Below are positions 28,025-50,675 of a stretch of DNA of 64,000 nucleotides, piece by piece (position 1 is the first letter of the stretch; each line of letters begins with the position of its first letter). The notes below the pieces were generated by a model. The model ran no database searches and was not told where the DNA came from. It saw nothing but the letters and a program-made list of their open reading frames with translations. The stretch comes from Solirubrobacteraceae bacterium (GTDB lineage Bacteria; Actinomycetota; Thermoleophilia; Solirubrobacterales; Solirubrobacteraceae), in NCBI GenBank assembly GCA_030447505.1, contig JAUJOT010000005.1, positions 323,395 to 387,394 on the forward strand. Direction: 5' to 3'. The translations under genes were made by a program, and so were the position numbers.

Positions 28025-28719
28025 TGCCCGTGGTCCACCAGCCGCGGCTGTCCGAGGCGATCGAGGACTACGCCAAGGCGATCTACGCCCTCGCTCGCCG
28101 CGGCGAAGGCACGGTCACGACCAACGCCCTGGCCGAGCGCCTCGGCGTCAGCGCCGGGTCGGTGTCGGCGATGATCAAGCGACTCGCCGAGCGCGGGCTG
28201 GCCGAACACCAACCGTACCGCGGCGCGCAGCTGACGGCCGAAGGTGAACGCGTCGCCCTGTCGGTCATGCGCCACCACCGGCTGCTGGAGCTGTACCTCG
28301 CCGAACACCTCGGCGTGCCGTGGGACCGCGTCCACGAGGAAGCCGAGGCCCTCGAACACGTGATCTCCGAGGACCTCGAGGCGCGCATCGCCGCCAAGCT
28401 CGGACATCCGACCCACGACCCGCACGGCGACCCGATCCCCGACGCGAATCTCGTCATCGACGAAGGTGACACCCGCAGCCTCGCCGCGATGGAGGTCGGG
28501 GGCCGGGGACGCTTCGTGCGCGTCTCGGACGCCGACCCGGAGATGCTGCGCTACCTCGACGGGCGCGGAATCGCGCTCGGCGACGAACTCGAGGTCATCG
28601 ACCGCCAGCCCTTCGACGGGCCGCTGACCGTGCGCTTCGGCACCAAGGACCATGTCCTCGGAGGCGGACTGGCACGGGCGATGCGGATCGACGTCGCCAG
28701 CAGCGACACGACGCGCTGA
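28024..28719 (+). CDS. DtxR/MntR-family metal-dependent regulator
   Basis: A 231-residue regulator. The winged helix lies in residues 5-65 (IEDYAKAIYALARR, LAERLGVSAGSVSAMIKRLAERGL), followed by the metal-binding dimerisation domain (MRHHRLLELYLAEHLGV, EAEALEHVISEDLEARI), with His/Glu ligands typical of IdeR/MntR and the linker HPTHDPHGDPIP. A C-terminal SH3/FeoA-like domain follows. Metal-bound dimers of this family repress uptake genes. It is the third gene of the oxidase-ZIP operon and probably regulates the promoter at 25.7 kb; whether the signal is iron or manganese is not decided by the sequence. Confidence 0.9.
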   Translation: MPVVHQPRLSEAIEDYAKAIYALARRGEGTVTTNALAERLGVSAGSVSAMIKRLAERGLAEHQPYRGAQLTAEGERVALSVMRHHRLLELYLAEHLGVPWDRVHEEAEALEHVISEDLEARIAAKLGHPTHDPHGDPIPDANLVIDEGDTRSLAAMEVGGRGRFVRVSDADPEMLRYLDGRGIALGDELEVIDRQPFDGPLTVRFGTKDHVLGGGLARAMRIDVASSDTTR

Positions 28720-28830
28720 GGGGTTAGTACGTGGCGCGTGCGCGCTCGTATGTTACGGTGCTGTCGGGGACGCCAGCACGCAGCGGTCGGGCGCGGCGTG
28801 ATGGCATCAATTTCGACTGGGAGGGCTGAG

Positions 28831-29259
28831 ATGGATACGAGTCTGGCAGGGCGCGTGGGGCCGATCATCGGCGGGTTCTATGTCGCGATCGGGATCATCG
28901 GCTTCTTCGTGACCGGGTTTGACAACTTCTTGCGCAACACGCCTGAGGCGCTGCTCGGCTTCAGCATCAATCCGATGCACAACCTCGTGCACATGACGAT
29001 CGGCGCGTTTCTGATCGTGATGACGACGCGCTTCTCGACTCCTACCGCCGAGGGCGCCGTGATGGGCGTCGGGCTGTTCTACATCACGGCGTTCGTGATC
29101 GGCACCGTCGCGCCCGACAACCTGACGATCATCTCGATGACCGGCGCCGGCGACCTCGAGAACGTCAACCACATCGTCAACGGCGTGATCCTGCTGACGA
29201 CCGGGCTGATCTCGTCGGCGCGGACGCAGTCGCAGATGAGGAAACAAGGTCTGACGTAG
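28831..29259 (+). CDS. DUF4383 membrane protein, copy 1
   Basis: A 142-residue protein with four hydrophobic helices and the DUF4383 landmarks GFSINPMHNLVHMTIG and NVNHIVNGVILLTTGL. The function is unknown; the family is common in actinobacteria. The start has GGGAGGG about five bases upstream. A copy almost identical at the base level lies at 33210-33638, differing in only three residues (D2G, G7Q, K138Q), with similar upstream sequence. A hairpin follows (CGCGGCGG/CCGCCGCG, 29274-29300). Confidence 0.88.
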   Translation: MDTSLAGRVGPIIGGFYVAIGIIGFFVTGFDNFLRNTPEALLGFSINPMHNLVHMTIGAFLIVMTTRFSTPTAEGAVMGVGLFYITAFVIGTVAPDNLTIISMTGAGDLENVNHIVNGVILLTTGLISSARTQSQMRKQGLT

Positions 29260-29273
29260 CCGCAGCGGCGCGC

Positions 29274-29300
29274 CGCGGCGGGCCCGCCGGGTCCGCCGCG
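29274..29300 (+). terminator. hairpin downstream of DUF4383 copy 1
   Basis: Eight-base perfect stem CGCGGCGG/CCGCCGCG with an 11-base loop, starting 15 bases after the stop. There is no T-run, as is usual in such GC-rich genomes. Confidence 0.5.
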
Positions 29301-29404
29301 CGTCGCATCTACGAGGCGCGCTCGCCGCGCGCCTGCTCGGACCGATCCAGGCGTTTGATCGAGACGGGCTTGCGAGGCGCTGTCGGTGGGGTAATGAGTC
29401 CGGC

Positions 29405-32975: not shown

Positions 32976-33209
32976 GCGGACCTCAGCGTCGCCGCGGCTC
33001 GAGTTCTTACGCTTTCGCCCGCAGAGCGCTCTGGCAACGTCCGGCAGGCGGCCTACGATGGCCGCCTTGCGCGGGAAGCGGCGCGACGCGAGCGGTCGCA
33101 ACCTGGCGCGCGCGCAATCGGCCGATGTCTTACCGTGCTGGGCACGCCGAGCACGTAGCGGTTCGGGCCGCGTGGTGCGGGCAACAACATTCGAGCGGGA
33201 GGGGCTGAG

Positions 33210-33638
33210 ATGGGTACGAGTCTGGCGCAGCGCGTGGGGCCGATCATCGGCGGGTTCTATGTCGCGATCGGGATCATCGGCTTCTTCGTGACCGGGTTTG
33301 ACAACTTCTTGCGCAACACGCCTGAGGCGCTGCTCGGCTTCAGCATCAATCCGATGCACAACCTCGTGCACATGACGATCGGCGCGTTTCTGATCGTGAT
33401 GACGACGCGCTTCTCGACTCCTACCGCCGAGGGCGCCGTGATGGGCGTCGGGCTGTTCTACATCACGGCGTTCGTGATCGGCACCGTCGCGCCCGACAAC
33501 CTGACGATCATCTCGATGACCGGCGCCGGCGACCTCGAGAACGTCAACCACATCGTCAACGGCGTGATCCTGCTGACGACCGGGCTGATCTCGTCGGCGC
33601 GGACGCAGTCGCAGATGAGACAACAAGGTCTGACGTAA
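33210..33638 (+). CDS. DUF4383 membrane protein, copy 2
   Basis: A 142-residue near-duplicate of the protein at 28831-29259. The coding sequences are identical over almost the whole length; differences are limited to the first codons and the last few. The upstream region keeps the general pattern (a TTAC-GTGCTG motif about 70 bases before the start, and GGGAGGGGCTGAG before the ATG), so copy 2 probably has its own promoter. The direct orientation of the two copies would allow recombination that deletes the 4.4 kb between them. Confidence 0.88.
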   Translation: MGTSLAQRVGPIIGGFYVAIGIIGFFVTGFDNFLRNTPEALLGFSINPMHNLVHMTIGAFLIVMTTRFSTPTAEGAVMGVGLFYITAFVIGTVAPDNLTIISMTGAGDLENVNHIVNGVILLTTGLISSARTQSQMRQQGLT

Positions 33639-34430
33639 CCGCGGCGGCGCGGCGGCGGGGCCCCGTCCCATTCGCCGCGCGGCGTAGCGCCGGGTCGATC
33701 TGCCCTCGCGGTCCGCGCGTCCTTGGCCGCGTGGTGATCAATGACGCCACCGCGTAGCCAGCCGCCTCGGCCTTGCGCGCTGTGAGCCGCCGCGTGATCG
33801 GGCGTAGCGGGGCCGGGGGTAGACGCAGGGCGGTGACGCTCACCGTGGGACGACTTCGACGGCGTGGTCCTGCAGCGACAGCGTCACGCACTGCCCGTTC
33901 AAGGGCGACGCCTCCTACTGCTCGCTGCGACCGGCGACGACGCCGTCGAGGATGCGGTCTGGGCGTACGAGCAGCCGCTTGAGTCCGCGCGGTGGCTGCG
34001 CGGGCTGGCGGCACCGAGCTGGCAGGTGGCCGATGTCCGGTTCGTCGAGGACGAGGTGCTTCATGGCCGAGGGCATCGACGTGAAGGTCGGCGCGCCGAA
34101 GGATCGTCCGGCGGCGTGAGCGCCCTCGCCGCGGGGGACCTCGCGGAGCCTTCGCAGCAGCTGCCGGCTTGCCGGGCTCCGCCGCGGCAGCGACCCTGAT
34201 CTTGCTCGCCGCCGGCGCGTTGGCCGCACAAGCCACTGGCAGGCACCACCGAGACCGAGCTGAAACGGGGGCTCGATGTGCTGCTCAGGTTCGTTCGGCG
34301 TCTTCTTCTGCGGCGAAGGCCTCGGCACGCACTGGCCCGGCCGACAAGGCCGCCCTGCTATACGTGATCGTAACGTTCGCTTCGCACGTTCCACTGAACC
34401 GGTCGGCGCGCCGCTCGCGCAGATGTGATC
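33639..34430. other. gene-poor stretch with a DUF427 remnant
   Basis: Apart from the DUF427-like remnant at 33838-34060, no coding sequence can be supported in these 790 bases. A short frame after it (MAEGIDVKVGAPKDRPAA, 34063-34119) reads well for 18 codons and then stops; its family is not recognisable. Confidence 0.5.
33838..34060 (+). pseudogene. DUF427-type protein remnant
   Basis: In one plus frame SVTHCPFKGDASYCSL appears, the hallmark HCPFKGxAxYxS signature of DUF427 proteins. After a frameshift near 33930 the second half continues in another frame as AVEDAVWAYEQPLESARWLRGLAA, and then VADVRFVEDEVLHGRG. The start and the first 60 residues are missing. Confidence 0.6.
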
Positions 34431-35186
34431 ATGAGCCTCAGCGACACCTTTGAGACCGTCGAGGAGAAGCTTCATGGCGTGCTGGTGCGCCACAGCATCA
34501 CTGCGCTGCGGCTCACCGTCGGCGCCGTGTTCTTGGGCTTCGGGCTCCTGAAGTTCTTTCCCGGGGTCAGCCCGGCGGAGGGCCTGTCGATCAAGACGAC
34601 CGAGCTGCTGACGTTCGGCGTGGTGCCGTGGCGGGTCGCGATCGTCGCGATCGCGACGCTGGAGTGCTTCATCGGGGTCTGTCTGCTCGTCAACCGCTGG
34701 ATGCGCGTTGCGGTCTGGCTGCTGGCTGTGGAGTTCATCGGGATCCTCGCCCCGCTCGTGCTGCTCCCCGGACGGCTGTTCAGCGGCCCGCACGGCGCCC
34801 CGACATTGGAGGGCCAGTACGTGCTCAAGGACATCATCCTCGTCGCGGCCGGCATGGCGATCGCCGCCGGTACCTTTCGTGGCGGCCACCTCGTCCGTGA
34901 CGAGCCCGGCGAAACCCCGCAGCAGGATCCACCATCGCAACCGACTGCTCGCCCGGCTGACGGGCGCGACGGCGCCGCTGGGCTTGACGCCCGTGACAAG
35001 GTGCAGATCGTGATGAGCGCCGCCGGTGACGAGCGCTCGGTGCAAGAGGTCTGTGAGGAGCACGAGATCTCCCAGAGCACGTACTACGAGTGGCGCGACG
35101 CGACCATGCGCGGCGCGATGCGAGCGCTGGATAAGCACGCAAACGGCGCTGGGGATCGCACACCTCACGAGGGCCGCGATGGGTGA
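34431..35186 (+). CDS. DoxX-like membrane protein with C-terminal transposase-type HTH
   Basis: A 251-residue protein. Residues 1-150 are a DoxX/YkgB-like four-helix membrane domain (LRLTVGAVFLGFGLLKFFPG, VAIVAIATLECFIGVCLLV, LEGQYVLKDIILVAAGMAI). After a Pro/Gly-rich linker, residues 185-235 read ARDKVQIVMSAAGDERSVQ, then EVCEEHEISQSTYYEWRDATM, which looks like the helix-turn-helix of IS3-type OrfA transposase subunits. The stop follows soon after. The fusion is unusual; it may be a real two-domain protein or the result of an IS remnant joined in frame. ATG 34431 is chosen (GTG 34425 is an alternative). The base of the first domain is intact. Confidence 0.75.
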   Translation: MSLSDTFETVEEKLHGVLVRHSITALRLTVGAVFLGFGLLKFFPGVSPAEGLSIKTTELLTFGVVPWRVAIVAIATLECFIGVCLLVNRWMRVAVWLLAVEFIGILAPLVLLPGRLFSGPHGAPTLEGQYVLKDIILVAAGMAIAAGTFRGGHLVRDEPGETPQQDPPSQPTARPADGRDGAAGLDARDKVQIVMSAAGDERSVQEVCEEHEISQSTYYEWRDATMRGAMRALDKHANGAGDRTPHEGRDG

Positions 35187-35332: not shown

Positions 35333-36325
35333 ATGGCCCCTGCCGACGAATCGTTCCTCGCTCGTGTCGAGGATTTCCTTGCCGGTCTGCAGGCCGCCAA
35401 GCGCTCGCAGCACACGATCGACGGCTATCGCAGCGACCTGCTCGGCGTTGGCGCGCGGATCGCGACGCTGCGTGGCGATCAGGCGACCGTCGAGCGCCTG
35501 ACGATCGCAGAGCTTGACGCGCGCGCGATGCGCCGCGGCTTCGCGGCCTGGGCGTCCGATCACGCGGAGGGCTCGATGGTCCGCGCTTGGGGCACGTGGA
35601 GTCGCTTCTTCGGTTATCTCGTCGACGACGAGGCGATCGAGCGAAACCCGATGAAGCAGGTCCCAAAGCCCAAGCTGCCGCATAGCGCGCCGCGCGCGAT
35701 CCGCCACGAGAACGTCGCTGAGACGCTGCTTGGGACCGCCGCGACCCCGGACCCGCAGGCCAAGCGCTCCAAGCGCTGGCCCGAGCGCGACGTCGCCCTG
35801 GTCGCGTTGTACTGCGTGACCGGGATCCGTCTGGCCGAGGGGATCGCGCTGCGCCTGGACAGCATCACCGGCCCTACCGGAGCGCGCCGCCTGCAGGTCA
35901 CCGGCAAGGGCAAGAAGGACCGCTCGATCCCGATCCAGCCCGGCCTCGAGTCCGTCATCGACCGCTACCTCGACAGCCGGGCGCAGCGCCACGGCGACGA
36001 CGCTCTCAGCGACCCCAACGCGCCGCTGCTGGTGCACTATGACGGCACGGCGCTCACGCGCGGGCGGATCCAGTACGTCATCGAGCGGCTGTACCGCCGC
36101 GCCGGCCTTCGCGCCGCCGTCCCCGCCGGCGCGCTCGTGCACGCCCTGCGCCACAGCTTCGCGTCGCTGGCAATCGAGTACGGCACCGACGTCGTCGAGC
36201 TACGCGACCTGCTCGGCCATGCGTCCCTGGCGACCACCAGCCGCTACCTGGACGCCAACGCGAGCCGGCTGCGCGAAGCCGTCGCCGCGCACCCCTCACA
36301 GCGCGCCGTAGACCAGCACCGCTAG
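35333..36325 (+). CDS. tyrosine recombinase (XerC/D-type integrase)
   Basis: A 330-residue tyrosine recombinase. The N-terminal SAM-like domain (about residues 1-110) is followed by the catalytic domain with Arg in VTGIRLAEGIAL, Lys in GKGKKDR, HALRHSFASLAIE (HxxR), GHASLATT and the nucleophile Tyr in SRYLD, so all catalytic residues are present. It could be a phage- or plasmid-type integrase or a dif-like site recombinase. No attachment site is evident next to it. The gene is followed by a strong hairpin, and ferritin is convergent. Confidence 0.9.
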   Translation: MAPADESFLARVEDFLAGLQAAKRSQHTIDGYRSDLLGVGARIATLRGDQATVERLTIAELDARAMRRGFAAWASDHAEGSMVRAWGTWSRFFGYLVDDEAIERNPMKQVPKPKLPHSAPRAIRHENVAETLLGTAATPDPQAKRSKRWPERDVALVALYCVTGIRLAEGIALRLDSITGPTGARRLQVTGKGKKDRSIPIQPGLESVIDRYLDSRAQRHGDDALSDPNAPLLVHYDGTALTRGRIQYVIERLYRRAGLRAAVPAGALVHALRHSFASLAIEYGTDVVELRDLLGHASLATTSRYLDANASRLREAVAAHPSQRAVDQHR

Positions 36326-47880: not shown

Positions 47881-48012
47881 TCATTGATTGAGAGAGGGAG
47901 TCAGACGGTACTGCTCGTCGTAGAGTGCTTCCACCTCGGCAGGGGGACGATCGCCCAGAGACTCGTGCAGGCGGTCGTTGTTAAACCAGGCGACCCATTC
48001 GACGATCGCCAG
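47881..48012 (-). pseudogene. IS-B OrfB transposase, 3' part
   Basis: Reads AIVEWVAWFNNDRLHESLGDRPPAEVEALYDEQYRL to the stop, the typical C-terminal end of IS3 OrfB after the last catalytic Glu region. It continues directly from 50742 on the other side of IS-A. At 48009-48012 stands CCAG, repeated at 50738-50741, the target duplication of IS-A. Confidence 0.85.
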
Positions 48013-48092
48013 TGGCGTGACCCCGGTGGTTCGGTCCGGTGCTTGTGAGAGTACTTCTCGCCCACGATCATGGGCAGCGAGGACTCCAACGC

Positions 48093-48500
48093 ATGAAGCG
48101 ACGCAGGCACACTCCCGAGCAGGTCATCCGCAAGCTGCGCGAGGCGGAGCGGATGCTGAGCGAGGGCAAGACGATCGCGGAGCTCTGCAAGGAGCTTGAG
48201 GTCTCCGAGCAGACGTTCCATCGCTGGCGCAACCAGTACGGCGGGATGAAGGCCGATGACGTCAAGCGCCTCAAGGAGCTTGAGCGTGAGAACACGCGGT
48301 TGAAGGCGATCGTGGCTGACCAGGCCCTGGAGTGTCAGGCGTTGAAGGAGGTTGCTCGGGAAACTGGTGAGCCCGGCCCGTCGGCGGTCGGCGGTCGCGG
48401 TGCTCTGCGACCGCCTGCACGTCAGCGAGCGCTGGGCCTGCCGGGTCTGCGGTCAGCATCGCTCCACGCAGCGGCGCGAGCCGATGCCCGCCGGCGATGA
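48093..48500 (+). CDS. IS-A OrfA, outer copy
   Basis: IS3-type OrfA: MKRRRHTPEQVIRKLREAERM, KTIAELCKELEVSEQTFHRWRNQYGG is the helix-turn-helix, and RLKELERENTRLKAIVADQALECQALKEV the leucine-zipper segment. The last part of the open frame is in antisense-like sequence beyond the OrfB start and is probably not conserved. It overlaps OrfB in the +1 frame. Confidence 0.8.
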   Translation: MKRRRHTPEQVIRKLREAERMLSEGKTIAELCKELEVSEQTFHRWRNQYGGMKADDVKRLKELERENTRLKAIVADQALECQALKEVARETGEPGPSAVGGRGALRPPARQRALGLPGLRSASLHAAARADARRR

Positions 48501-49214
48501 TGAGGCGTTGCGTGCCGAGCTGCGCGCGTTCTCGGCCAGGCGCCCGCGGTGGGGGTACCGCCAGGCGCACACGCATCTGCAGCAGGAGGGCTGGGAGATC
48601 AACCGCAAGCGCGTGCAGCGCGTCTGGCGCGAGGAAGGGCTGCGGGTCCCGCAGCGCACCCGCAAGCGTCGCCGGCTCGGCGACGCCACCGCCCCAAGGA
48701 GCTGCTGCGTGCCGAGCGCCCCGGGCACGTGTGGGCGTTTGACTTCCAGTTTGACCAGACCGCCGACGGCCACGTGCTGAAGCTCTTGAACGTCGTCGAC
48801 GAGTTCACCAGGGAGGCGCTGGTCATGCACACAGCCCGCAGCGTCACCGCCGATCAGACCGTCGCGGTGCTGGAGGCACTCGTCGCGGTCCGTGGCGCCC
48901 CAACGCATATCCGCTGCGACAACGGCCCGGAGATGACCGCGAACGCGCTGATCGACTGGTGCGCCGCGCAGAGCACGCTGACCAGCTACATCGACCCCGG
49001 CGCACCGTGGCAGAACCCGTTCGTTGAGTCCTTCCACTCGCGCGTACGCGACGAGCTGCTGAACCTCGAGTTGTTCTCATGCCTCGCCGAAGCCCGGGTC
49101 GTGATCGAGGACTGGCGCGAGGACTTCAACCGCCACCGGCCGCACTCCGCCCTTGGCCGCAAGGCTCCCGCCGTCTTCGCTGCTGCCTGGACGCTACCCG
49201 CACCCGCCGCCTGA
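48352..49214 (+). pseudogene. IS-A OrfB transposase, outer copy, one-base deletion
   Basis: Same protein as the inner copy, but one C is missing in the run near 48691-48695 (CCGCCCCAAG against CCGCCCCCAAG), shifting the frame before the catalytic core. The DDE region (AFDFQFDQTADG, IRCDNGPE, NPFVESFHS) is only in the second frame. This copy is therefore defective. Confidence 0.88.
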
Positions 49215-49394
49215 CCCTCACCGCACGGACGCGCGCGGACGGAAGCCCGCCGCTCGGCTCGCCCTCCGGGCTCGCCTCCGCGGCAGGCTTCCGTCCGCGG
49301 CAGCACCTAGCGTGTGGCGTGACCCCGGTGGTTCGGTCCGGTGCTTGTGAGAGTACTTCTCGCCCACGATCATGGGCAGCGAGGACTCCAACGC

Positions 49395-49802
49395 ATGAAG
49401 CGACGCAGGCACACTCCCGAGCAGGTCATCCGCAAGCTGCGCGAGGCGGAGCGGATGCTGAGCGAGGGCAAGACGATCGCGGAGCTCTGCAAGGAGCTTG
49501 AGGTCTCCGAGCAGACGTTCCATCGCTGGCGCAACCAGTACGGCGGGATGAAGGCCGATGACGTCAAGCGCCTCAAGGAGCTTGAGCGTGAGAACACGCG
49601 GTTGAAGGCGATCGTGGCTGACCAGGCCCTGGAGTGTCAGGCGTTGAAGGAGGTTGCTCGGGAAACTGGTGAGCCCGGCCCGTCGGCGGGCGGCGGTCGC
49701 GATGCTCTGCGACCGCCTGCACGTCAGCGAGCGCTGGGCCTGCCGGGTCTGCGGTCAGCATCGCTCCACGCAGCGGCGCGAGCCGATGCCCGCCGGCGAT
49801 GA
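49395..49802 (+). CDS. IS-A OrfA, inner copy
   Basis: Helix-turn-helix and leucine-zipper subunit of the IS3-type transposase (KTIAELCKELEVSEQTFHRWRNQ; RLKELERENTRLKAIV). It starts at ATG 49395 and overlaps OrfB in the next frame. Expression of the fused OrfAB needs a frameshift or translation coupling near 49650; AAGGAGG just before TTG 49654 favours re-initiation. Confidence 0.85.
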   Translation: MKRRRHTPEQVIRKLREAERMLSEGKTIAELCKELEVSEQTFHRWRNQYGGMKADDVKRLKELERENTRLKAIVADQALECQALKEVARETGEPGPSAGGGRDALRPPARQRALGLPGLRSASLHAAARADARRR

Positions 49803-50517
49803 TGAGGCGTTGCGTGCCGAGCTGCGCGCGTTCTCGGCCAGGCGCCCGCGGTGGGGGTACCGCCAGGCGCACACGCATCTGCAGCAGGAGGGCTGGGAGA
49901 TCAACCGCAAGCGCGTGCAGCGCGTCTGGCGCGAGGAAGGGCTGCGGGTCCCGCAGCGCACCCGCAAGCGTCGCCGGCTCGGCGACGCCACCGCCCCCAA
50001 GGAGCTGCTGCGTGCCGAGCGCCCCGGGCACGTGTGGGCGTTTGACTTCCAGTTTGACCAGACCGCCGACGGCCACGTGCTGAAGCTCTTGAACGTCGTC
50101 GACGAGTTCACCAGGGAGGCGCTGGTCATGCACACAGCCCGCAGCGTCACCGCCGATCAGACCGTCGCGGTGCTGGAGGCACTCGTCGCGGTCCGTGGCG
50201 CCCCAACGCATATCCGCTGCGACAACGGCCCGGAGATGACCGCGAACGCGCTGATCGACTGGTGCGCCGCGCAGAGCACGCTGACCAGCTACATCGACCC
50301 CGGCGCACCGTGGCAGAACCCGTTCGTTGAGTCCTTCCACTCGCGCGTACGCGACGAGCTGCTGAACCTCGAGTTGTTCTCATGCCTCGCCGAAGCCCGG
50401 GTCGTGATCGAGGACTGGCGCGAGGACTTCAACCGCCACCGGCCGCACTCCGCCCTTGGCCGCAAGGCTCCCGCCGTCTTCGCTGCTGCCTGGACGCTAC
50501 CCGCACCCGCCGCCTGA
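49654..50517 (+). CDS. IS-A OrfB transposase, inner copy
   Basis: A 287-residue integrase-core transposase. RRAAVAMLCDRLHVSERWACRVCGQ starts the N-terminal HTH_21-like part, RWGYRQAHTHLQQEGWEINRKRVQRVWREEGL follows, and the DDE motif is AFDFQFDQTADGHVLK (first D), IRCDNGPEMTANAL (second D) and NPFVESFHSRVRDELLN (E), ending RPHSALGRKAPA. All catalytic residues are present. TTG 49654 is the start implied by the ribosome-binding site AAGGAGG; the frame may also be entered by ribosomal frameshift from OrfA. Confidence 0.9.
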   Translation: MLGKLVSPARRRAAVAMLCDRLHVSERWACRVCGQHRSTQRREPMPAGDDEALRAELRAFSARRPRWGYRQAHTHLQQEGWEINRKRVQRVWREEGLRVPQRTRKRRRLGDATAPKELLRAERPGHVWAFDFQFDQTADGHVLKLLNVVDEFTREALVMHTARSVTADQTVAVLEALVAVRGAPTHIRCDNGPEMTANALIDWCAAQSTLTSYIDPGAPWQNPFVESFHSRVRDELLNLELFSCLAEARVVIEDWREDFNRHRPHSALGRKAPAVFAAAWTLPAPAA

Positions 50518-50675
50518 CCCTCACCGCACGGACGCGCGCGGACGGAAGCCCGCCGCTCGGCTCGCCCTCCGGGCTCGCCTCCGCGGCAGGCTTCCGTCCG
50601 CGGCAGCACCTAGCGTGCCCGTACTACATCCACCCGGCTCTCACAGCAGGTGGACCGAAGAACGGGGTCCGGCCA

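Follow-up and report, generated by a model that had tools for sequence, protein, structure and literature searches.

The question raised by this locus is whether a bacterial membrane protein of the DoxX family has truly been joined to the helix-turn-helix (HTH) of an insertion-sequence (IS) transposase and, if so, what the joined protein does. DoxX proteins recur in oxidative-stress systems and their working is poorly understood; a natural fusion of DoxX to a DNA-binding fold would, if true, be a direct clue that some DoxX proteins signal. It would equally be a case of a bacterial transposase HTH in host use within a membrane protein, for which the tail-less relatives that the genome also carries would serve as natural controls. 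The gene lies in a stretch of 64,000 nucleotides from a Solirubrobacteraceae bacterium, referred to here as the window. Sequence comparison and structure modelling indicate that the fusion is real, conserved, selected and apparently undescribed, and they make a regulatory function plausible.

The gene (34431-35186, forward strand) runs as an uninterrupted frame from an ATG at 34431 to a stop codon at 35184-35186 and encodes 251 amino acids. As predicted from its sequence, the product is a DoxX-family protein with four transmembrane helices, followed by a linker and an HTH of the IS3 OrfA type. The features of the locus are as follows:

34395..34407, forward strand: conserved 13-bp element TGAACCGRTCGGC, starting 36 bp before the ATG; possible operator, or leader peptide/older reading frame (from conservation)
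34431..34895, forward strand: DoxX-family membrane domain, residues 1-155, four predicted transmembrane helices (PF07681, 22.5 bits; AF2; Foldseek)
34896..34985, forward strand: linker, residues 156-185, poorly conserved and mostly predicted to be disordered (pLDDT about 50 in 156-178; varies between fusions)
34986..35138, forward strand: HTH_Tnp_1 domain, residues 186-236 (PF01527, 33.9 bits; AF2 helices; dN/dS)
35139..35186, forward strand: C-terminal 15 residues and stop codon, unconstrained (dN/dS 1.0 and 1.5 in two pairs, few codons)

The DoxX match covers residues 24-105 and falls slightly below the Pfam cut-off (23.6 bits), and the fold-defining motifs of the membrane domain are common to many relatives in the alignment. 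In the AF2 model of the full protein (mean pLDDT 86), four long hydrophobic helices are placed at residues 3-40, 67-87, 91-111 and 126-149 with a pLDDT of about 90-97. A sequence search of solved structures gave no useful match for the protein; by structure, the closest solved relative of the membrane part is NACHO/TMEM35A (Foldseek, E 0.0055, probability 1.00), which we take to be a DoxX-like protein. The HTH_Tnp_1 match spans residues 190-235 and scores 30.1 bits in the full protein, rising to the listed value when the tail is searched alone (cut-off 24.1 bits), and the tail also has weak NCBIfam matches to IS3, IS481 and IS66 accessory proteins. Its helices (187-199, 204-210 and 215-242) are modelled confidently, with the recognition helix starting at residue 215 (35073), and the same helices are obtained when the tail is modelled alone. 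Foldseek aligned the tail with DNA-binding domains from sigma region 4, from serine recombinases and of the GerE/NarL type, many of them at 1.0-1.7 Å across 36-49 residues; no tail match had an E-value of 0.001 or better, which we attribute to the small size of the domain. A membrane domain and a DNA-binding fold, as judged by Pfam and AF2 from fold only, are thus present in one chain. The linker between them, 30 residues long here, differs in both length and sequence from one fusion to another.

The fusion is not confined to this strain. A scan of genome contigs returned 34 relatives, several of which align to the query over almost its full length, and further searches covered the class, the family, the phylum and named genomes. 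Fusions were found in 12 distinct species from three actinobacterial groups: Thermoleophilia (the window genome, L009, L010, L011, L015, L070, L071 and L072), Pseudonocardiales (L016 and L019) and Acidimicrobiia (L018 and L030), L018 being a locus of the cultured Aquihabitans sp. G128, whose genome is complete. They are rare, being present in 7 of the 146 genomes of the family and in one of 296 genomes in the class of Aquihabitans, and 59 of the 71 DoxX relatives analysed have no tail, nor do the two paralogs that the window genome encodes, at 59% identity, carry one. The preliminary description had proposed a search for the fusion in other genomes, and had allowed that all homologs might end at residue 150 and the tail be unique to one strain: the tail-less homologs do stop at about that residue, and the HTH tail is carried by all 12 species. 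One of them, L010, has an open reading frame (ORF) that ends inside the HTH, exactly at the start of the recognition helix. No description of a DoxX-HTH fusion was found in the open-access literature searched, and the fusion is apparently new to the literature.

Three observations were made on individual DoxX loci in the course of these searches. In genome G224 (L010:4600-4620; L130:5016-6055), the kilobase after the truncated fusion ORF holds no remainder of the HTH; an insertion, a deletion or a rearrangement may lie behind the truncation. At L017:4507-4593, a tail-less DoxX ORF continues through an antisense tRNA-Leu gene, and its C-terminus may represent read-through after the original end was lost. 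Contigs C8 and C11 of the window genome (L132 and L133) share a nearly identical multi-kilobase block in opposite orientation that includes a tail-less DoxX paralog, which is either a real duplication or an assembly duplication.

Selection on the tail was assessed by codon comparisons among the window, L009 and L015, with L011 as a more distant comparison. Among the three near relatives, dN/dS was 0.20-0.32 for the DoxX part and 0.10-0.23 for the HTH (residues 186-236), and the last residues gave 1.0 (window-L009) and 1.5 (L009-L015), each from few codons; the window-L015 value for these residues was saturated on 9 codons and unusable. By these codon comparisons the HTH, like the DoxX part, is under purifying selection among near relatives, and the residues after it drift. 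The HTH shows less constraint when compared with the more distant L011 (dN/dS 0.68-0.76), so the claim of selection rests on the near relatives together with the retained fold. Chance read-through and an assembly artefact were ruled out as sources of the tail by its presence in 12 species and the selection upon it.

A source for the tail is indicated by its relatives. When its profile was searched across 349 genomes of the class, the tail was found on no non-DoxX host protein; besides the DoxX fusions there were short OrfA-type ORFs, with a few fragments left unclassified. Downstream of most of the OrfA-type ORFs inspected lies a DDE integrase frame that is often degenerate, a remnant of IS3 OrfB; for one, this frame is rve by Pfam and an IS3 family transposase by NCBIfam (208.7 bits, cut-off 160). 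Because its only other relatives found in the class are these short ORFs, most with OrfB remnants, the tail is read as an exapted IS3 OrfA HTH without the leucine zipper. The likeness extends over all three HTH helices, especially the YYxWRD segment, the common sequence being KVQIVMSAAGDERSVQEVCEEHEISQSTYYEWRD here and KLEIVLAGLKGDRSVRDVCREHGVSETLYYGWRD in the OrfA of L085. The resemblance to an IS3 OrfA HTH put forward in the preliminary description is borne out by the Pfam score and by these nearest relatives. In contrast to IS3-family OrfAs, the repressor OrfA of IS2 among them, the fusion stops 15 residues past the HTH, with no leucine zipper there; its HTH is net acidic and anchored to a membrane domain; and no OrfB lies downstream, the next gene being a tyrosine recombinase with Phage_integrase, not rve. 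Lacking both zipper and OrfB, it is not an IS protein, and the HTH alone is IS-derived.

The capture appears to be old. A tree built on 52 columns places the ten near OrfAs in one group (95/92) separate from the fused tails; a single capture is possible. On the DoxX tree, the fused label requires 7 changes and is clustered (0 of 500 shuffles as low), mostly in one group of 16; this distribution is compatible with a single early capture followed by repeated loss, or with a degree of transfer between lineages. The window genome has 15 further PF01527 hits, yet its OrfA copies share only 35-39% identity with the tail across some 35 residues, and the OrfA group closest to the tail turned up in other genomes rather than this one. 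A fresh IS capture was ruled out, since the tails have diverged with their host proteins and have no close match among the genome's present IS copies. By sequence, then, the tail is a captured IS3-family OrfA HTH that several lineages have kept. The preliminary description had offered IS capture as the alternative to a regulator; capture stands as the origin, but the two are not exclusive, the capture being old and its product now under purifying selection. Elsewhere in the window, 48012-50617 comprises two 1.3-kb units head to tail, 99.8% identical and each with an IS3-type OrfA (PF01527); this is a tandem IS3 pair of the kind that circle-junction insertion would produce.

As to what the protein does, we tentatively favour a membrane-tethered one-component regulator, CadC/ToxR-like in its working and perhaps autoregulatory, as suggested by sequence and model. 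A DoxX-family membrane protein would long ago have acquired a C-terminal HTH from an IS3-family OrfA, and several lineages would have kept it. The DoxX part may detect envelope redox or metal stress or be involved in it; the linker would allow the HTH to reach DNA near the membrane; and the HTH, on the cytoplasmic side, would bind DNA. The most likely target would be the protein's own upstream region, marked by the element at 34395-34407, and, since the leucine zipper of OrfA is missing, any dimerisation would depend on the DoxX part. The input is a guess drawn from known DoxX proteins: ECF stress regulons of Haemophilus and Neisseria include a DoxX-like gene, and DoxX of M. tuberculosis is part of a membrane thiol-oxidoreductase complex with cytoplasmic partners (PMC7907618). 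The protein shares with that family, including the M. tuberculosis membrane-associated oxidoreductase complex, the four-helix membrane domain and the recurrent link to oxidative-stress regulons (PMC7907618), whereas the members described have no DNA-binding tail and most homologs analysed here, the two paralogs among them, end before it. With CadC and ToxR (PMC7888679, PMC5430869) only the proposed principle is shared, namely a membrane anchor and a cytoplasmic DNA-binding domain in one chain. Those regulators have an N-terminal DNA-binding domain, a single transmembrane helix and an outer sensor domain (PMC7888679, PMC5430869); in the fusion, the HTH is C-terminal, there are four transmembrane helices and no large outer domain, and no sequence relationship exists. 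Pfam found no N-terminal winged HTH of the CadC/ToxR type in the protein, whose HTH is C-terminal and of the HTH_Tnp_1 type. The even number of transmembrane helices puts both termini on one side of the membrane; we infer this to be the cytoplasmic side, from the presence of the HTH and, weakly, from the loop charges.

The upstream element bears on the proposed autoregulation. The window, L009 and L015 have TGAACCGRTCGGC without change, and L070 and the tail-less homolog L017 each differ from it at one position; a shared upstream 15-mer reached 28 of 30, against a maximum of 24 in 200 shuffles. The upstream copy is the only exact one in the genome, where about 0.4 copies are expected by chance from base composition, so that its uniqueness alone says little. 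Copies with one mismatch lie mostly inside genes, and the element was rejected as the mark of a wider regulon on both counts. In one frame it encodes [V/M/L]-N-R-S-A (V-S-R-S-A in L070), with variation mostly at third codon positions; this frame runs into the DoxX frame in L017 and L070, and a possible upstream frame (34394-34431) lies one base off the DoxX frame in the window, L009, L010 (V-N-R-T) and L015. Given the third-position variation and the in-frame arrangement in L017 and L070, the element could mark a leader peptide or an older start codon just as well as an operator.

Whether the HTH binds DNA or protein is the point on which the regulator and its strongest rival part. In IS911, the corresponding OrfA segment holds a specific DNA-binding HTH followed by a leucine zipper (PMC2909936), and IS2 has a repressor OrfA whose binding site adjoins its promoter (PMC3299598). 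The recognition-helix segment of the fused tails stays close to OrfA, and from this likeness and the modelled fold we infer that the fused HTH binds DNA. The fused HTHs have, however, a mean net charge of -3.3 (-5 in the window) against +0.5 for OrfAs. Inspection by eye of 11 fused tails shows that one retains the helix-2 arginine located two residues ahead of the VC pair (SVREVCREH), and that one has the arginine directly following the pair, with lysine in another. The acidic charge, the loss of these arginines and the missing zipper together keep alive a protein-binding alternative, which we consider less likely: the captured HTH would have lost specific DNA binding and would dock a protein of the cytoplasm, be it a sigma factor, a redox enzyme or a further regulator, to DoxX in the membrane. 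The M. tuberculosis complex offers a precedent for cytoplasmic partners (PMC7907618), and an ECF sigma factor gene lies directly upstream of the fusion in L009 and L015, but no partner gene is conserved beside all fusions and the recognition-helix segment has stayed OrfA-like.

The regulator is preferred on the strength of the 12 species, selection on the HTH, the confident fold, kinship with OrfA, the helix count, the upstream element and stress-type neighbours. Against it were counted the acidic HTH, the arginine loss, the missing zipper, the L011 dN/dS values, the mostly unconserved neighbourhoods, the weakness of the loop charges for the cytoplasmic side, and an upstream element that also precedes the tail-less L017 and may be coding. 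A little more hesitantly, the fusions may constitute a new class of membrane-tethered regulators, in which an IS3 OrfA HTH exapted onto DoxX would link envelope redox or metal stress directly to transcription. For the captured-HTH membrane regulator of the preliminary description, the fusion, its IS origin and its conservation hold good, and the DNA-binding role continues as the conjectural part.

That the tail is a tolerated leftover of IS capture, functionless in itself and kept because it is harmless, is improbable: its patchy spread, the 7 changes on the DoxX tree, the close relatives without a tail and the L010 frame ending inside the HTH would all suit such a history, but the HTH is under purifying selection that is absent from the residues after it and is still recognisable in three actinobacterial groups. 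Least credible is a host-side controller that recognises IS3 ends through the OrfA HTH and dampens transposition, since, for all the frequency of IS3-type OrfAs in the window genome and the repressor role of IS2 OrfA (PMC3299598), the genome's own copies are as distant as given above, the nearest OrfA group is found in other genomes and the helix-2 arginines differ from those of OrfA.

Near the fusion in both the window and G224 (L130) are genes for a multicopper oxidase, a ZIP-like transporter (named by eye, without a Pfam hit), an MntR/DtxR-type regulator and GTP cyclohydrolase I, and in G224 the MntR/DtxR-type regulator gene is directly upstream of the fusion. At the fusion loci other than these and the two with an ECF sigma factor gene, no family of neighbours appears repeatedly next to the gene, and for the most part the gene surroundings are not conserved. 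The adjacent XerC-like tyrosine recombinase (35333-36325), cited earlier in support of mobile DNA, has no supported bearing on the fusion: different genes surround the other fusions, and no relative of the recombinase is among them. It was ruled out as part of the system and is probably irrelevant. Upstream of the fusion, 28702-29305 and 33077-33684 form a 0.6-kb direct repeat (91% identical DNA) carrying two DUF4383 membrane-protein genes whose proteins are 98% identical; the two copies flank a glycosyltransferase gene, a PHP-like gene, a Rieske-DUF2231 gene and that for GTP cyclohydrolase I.
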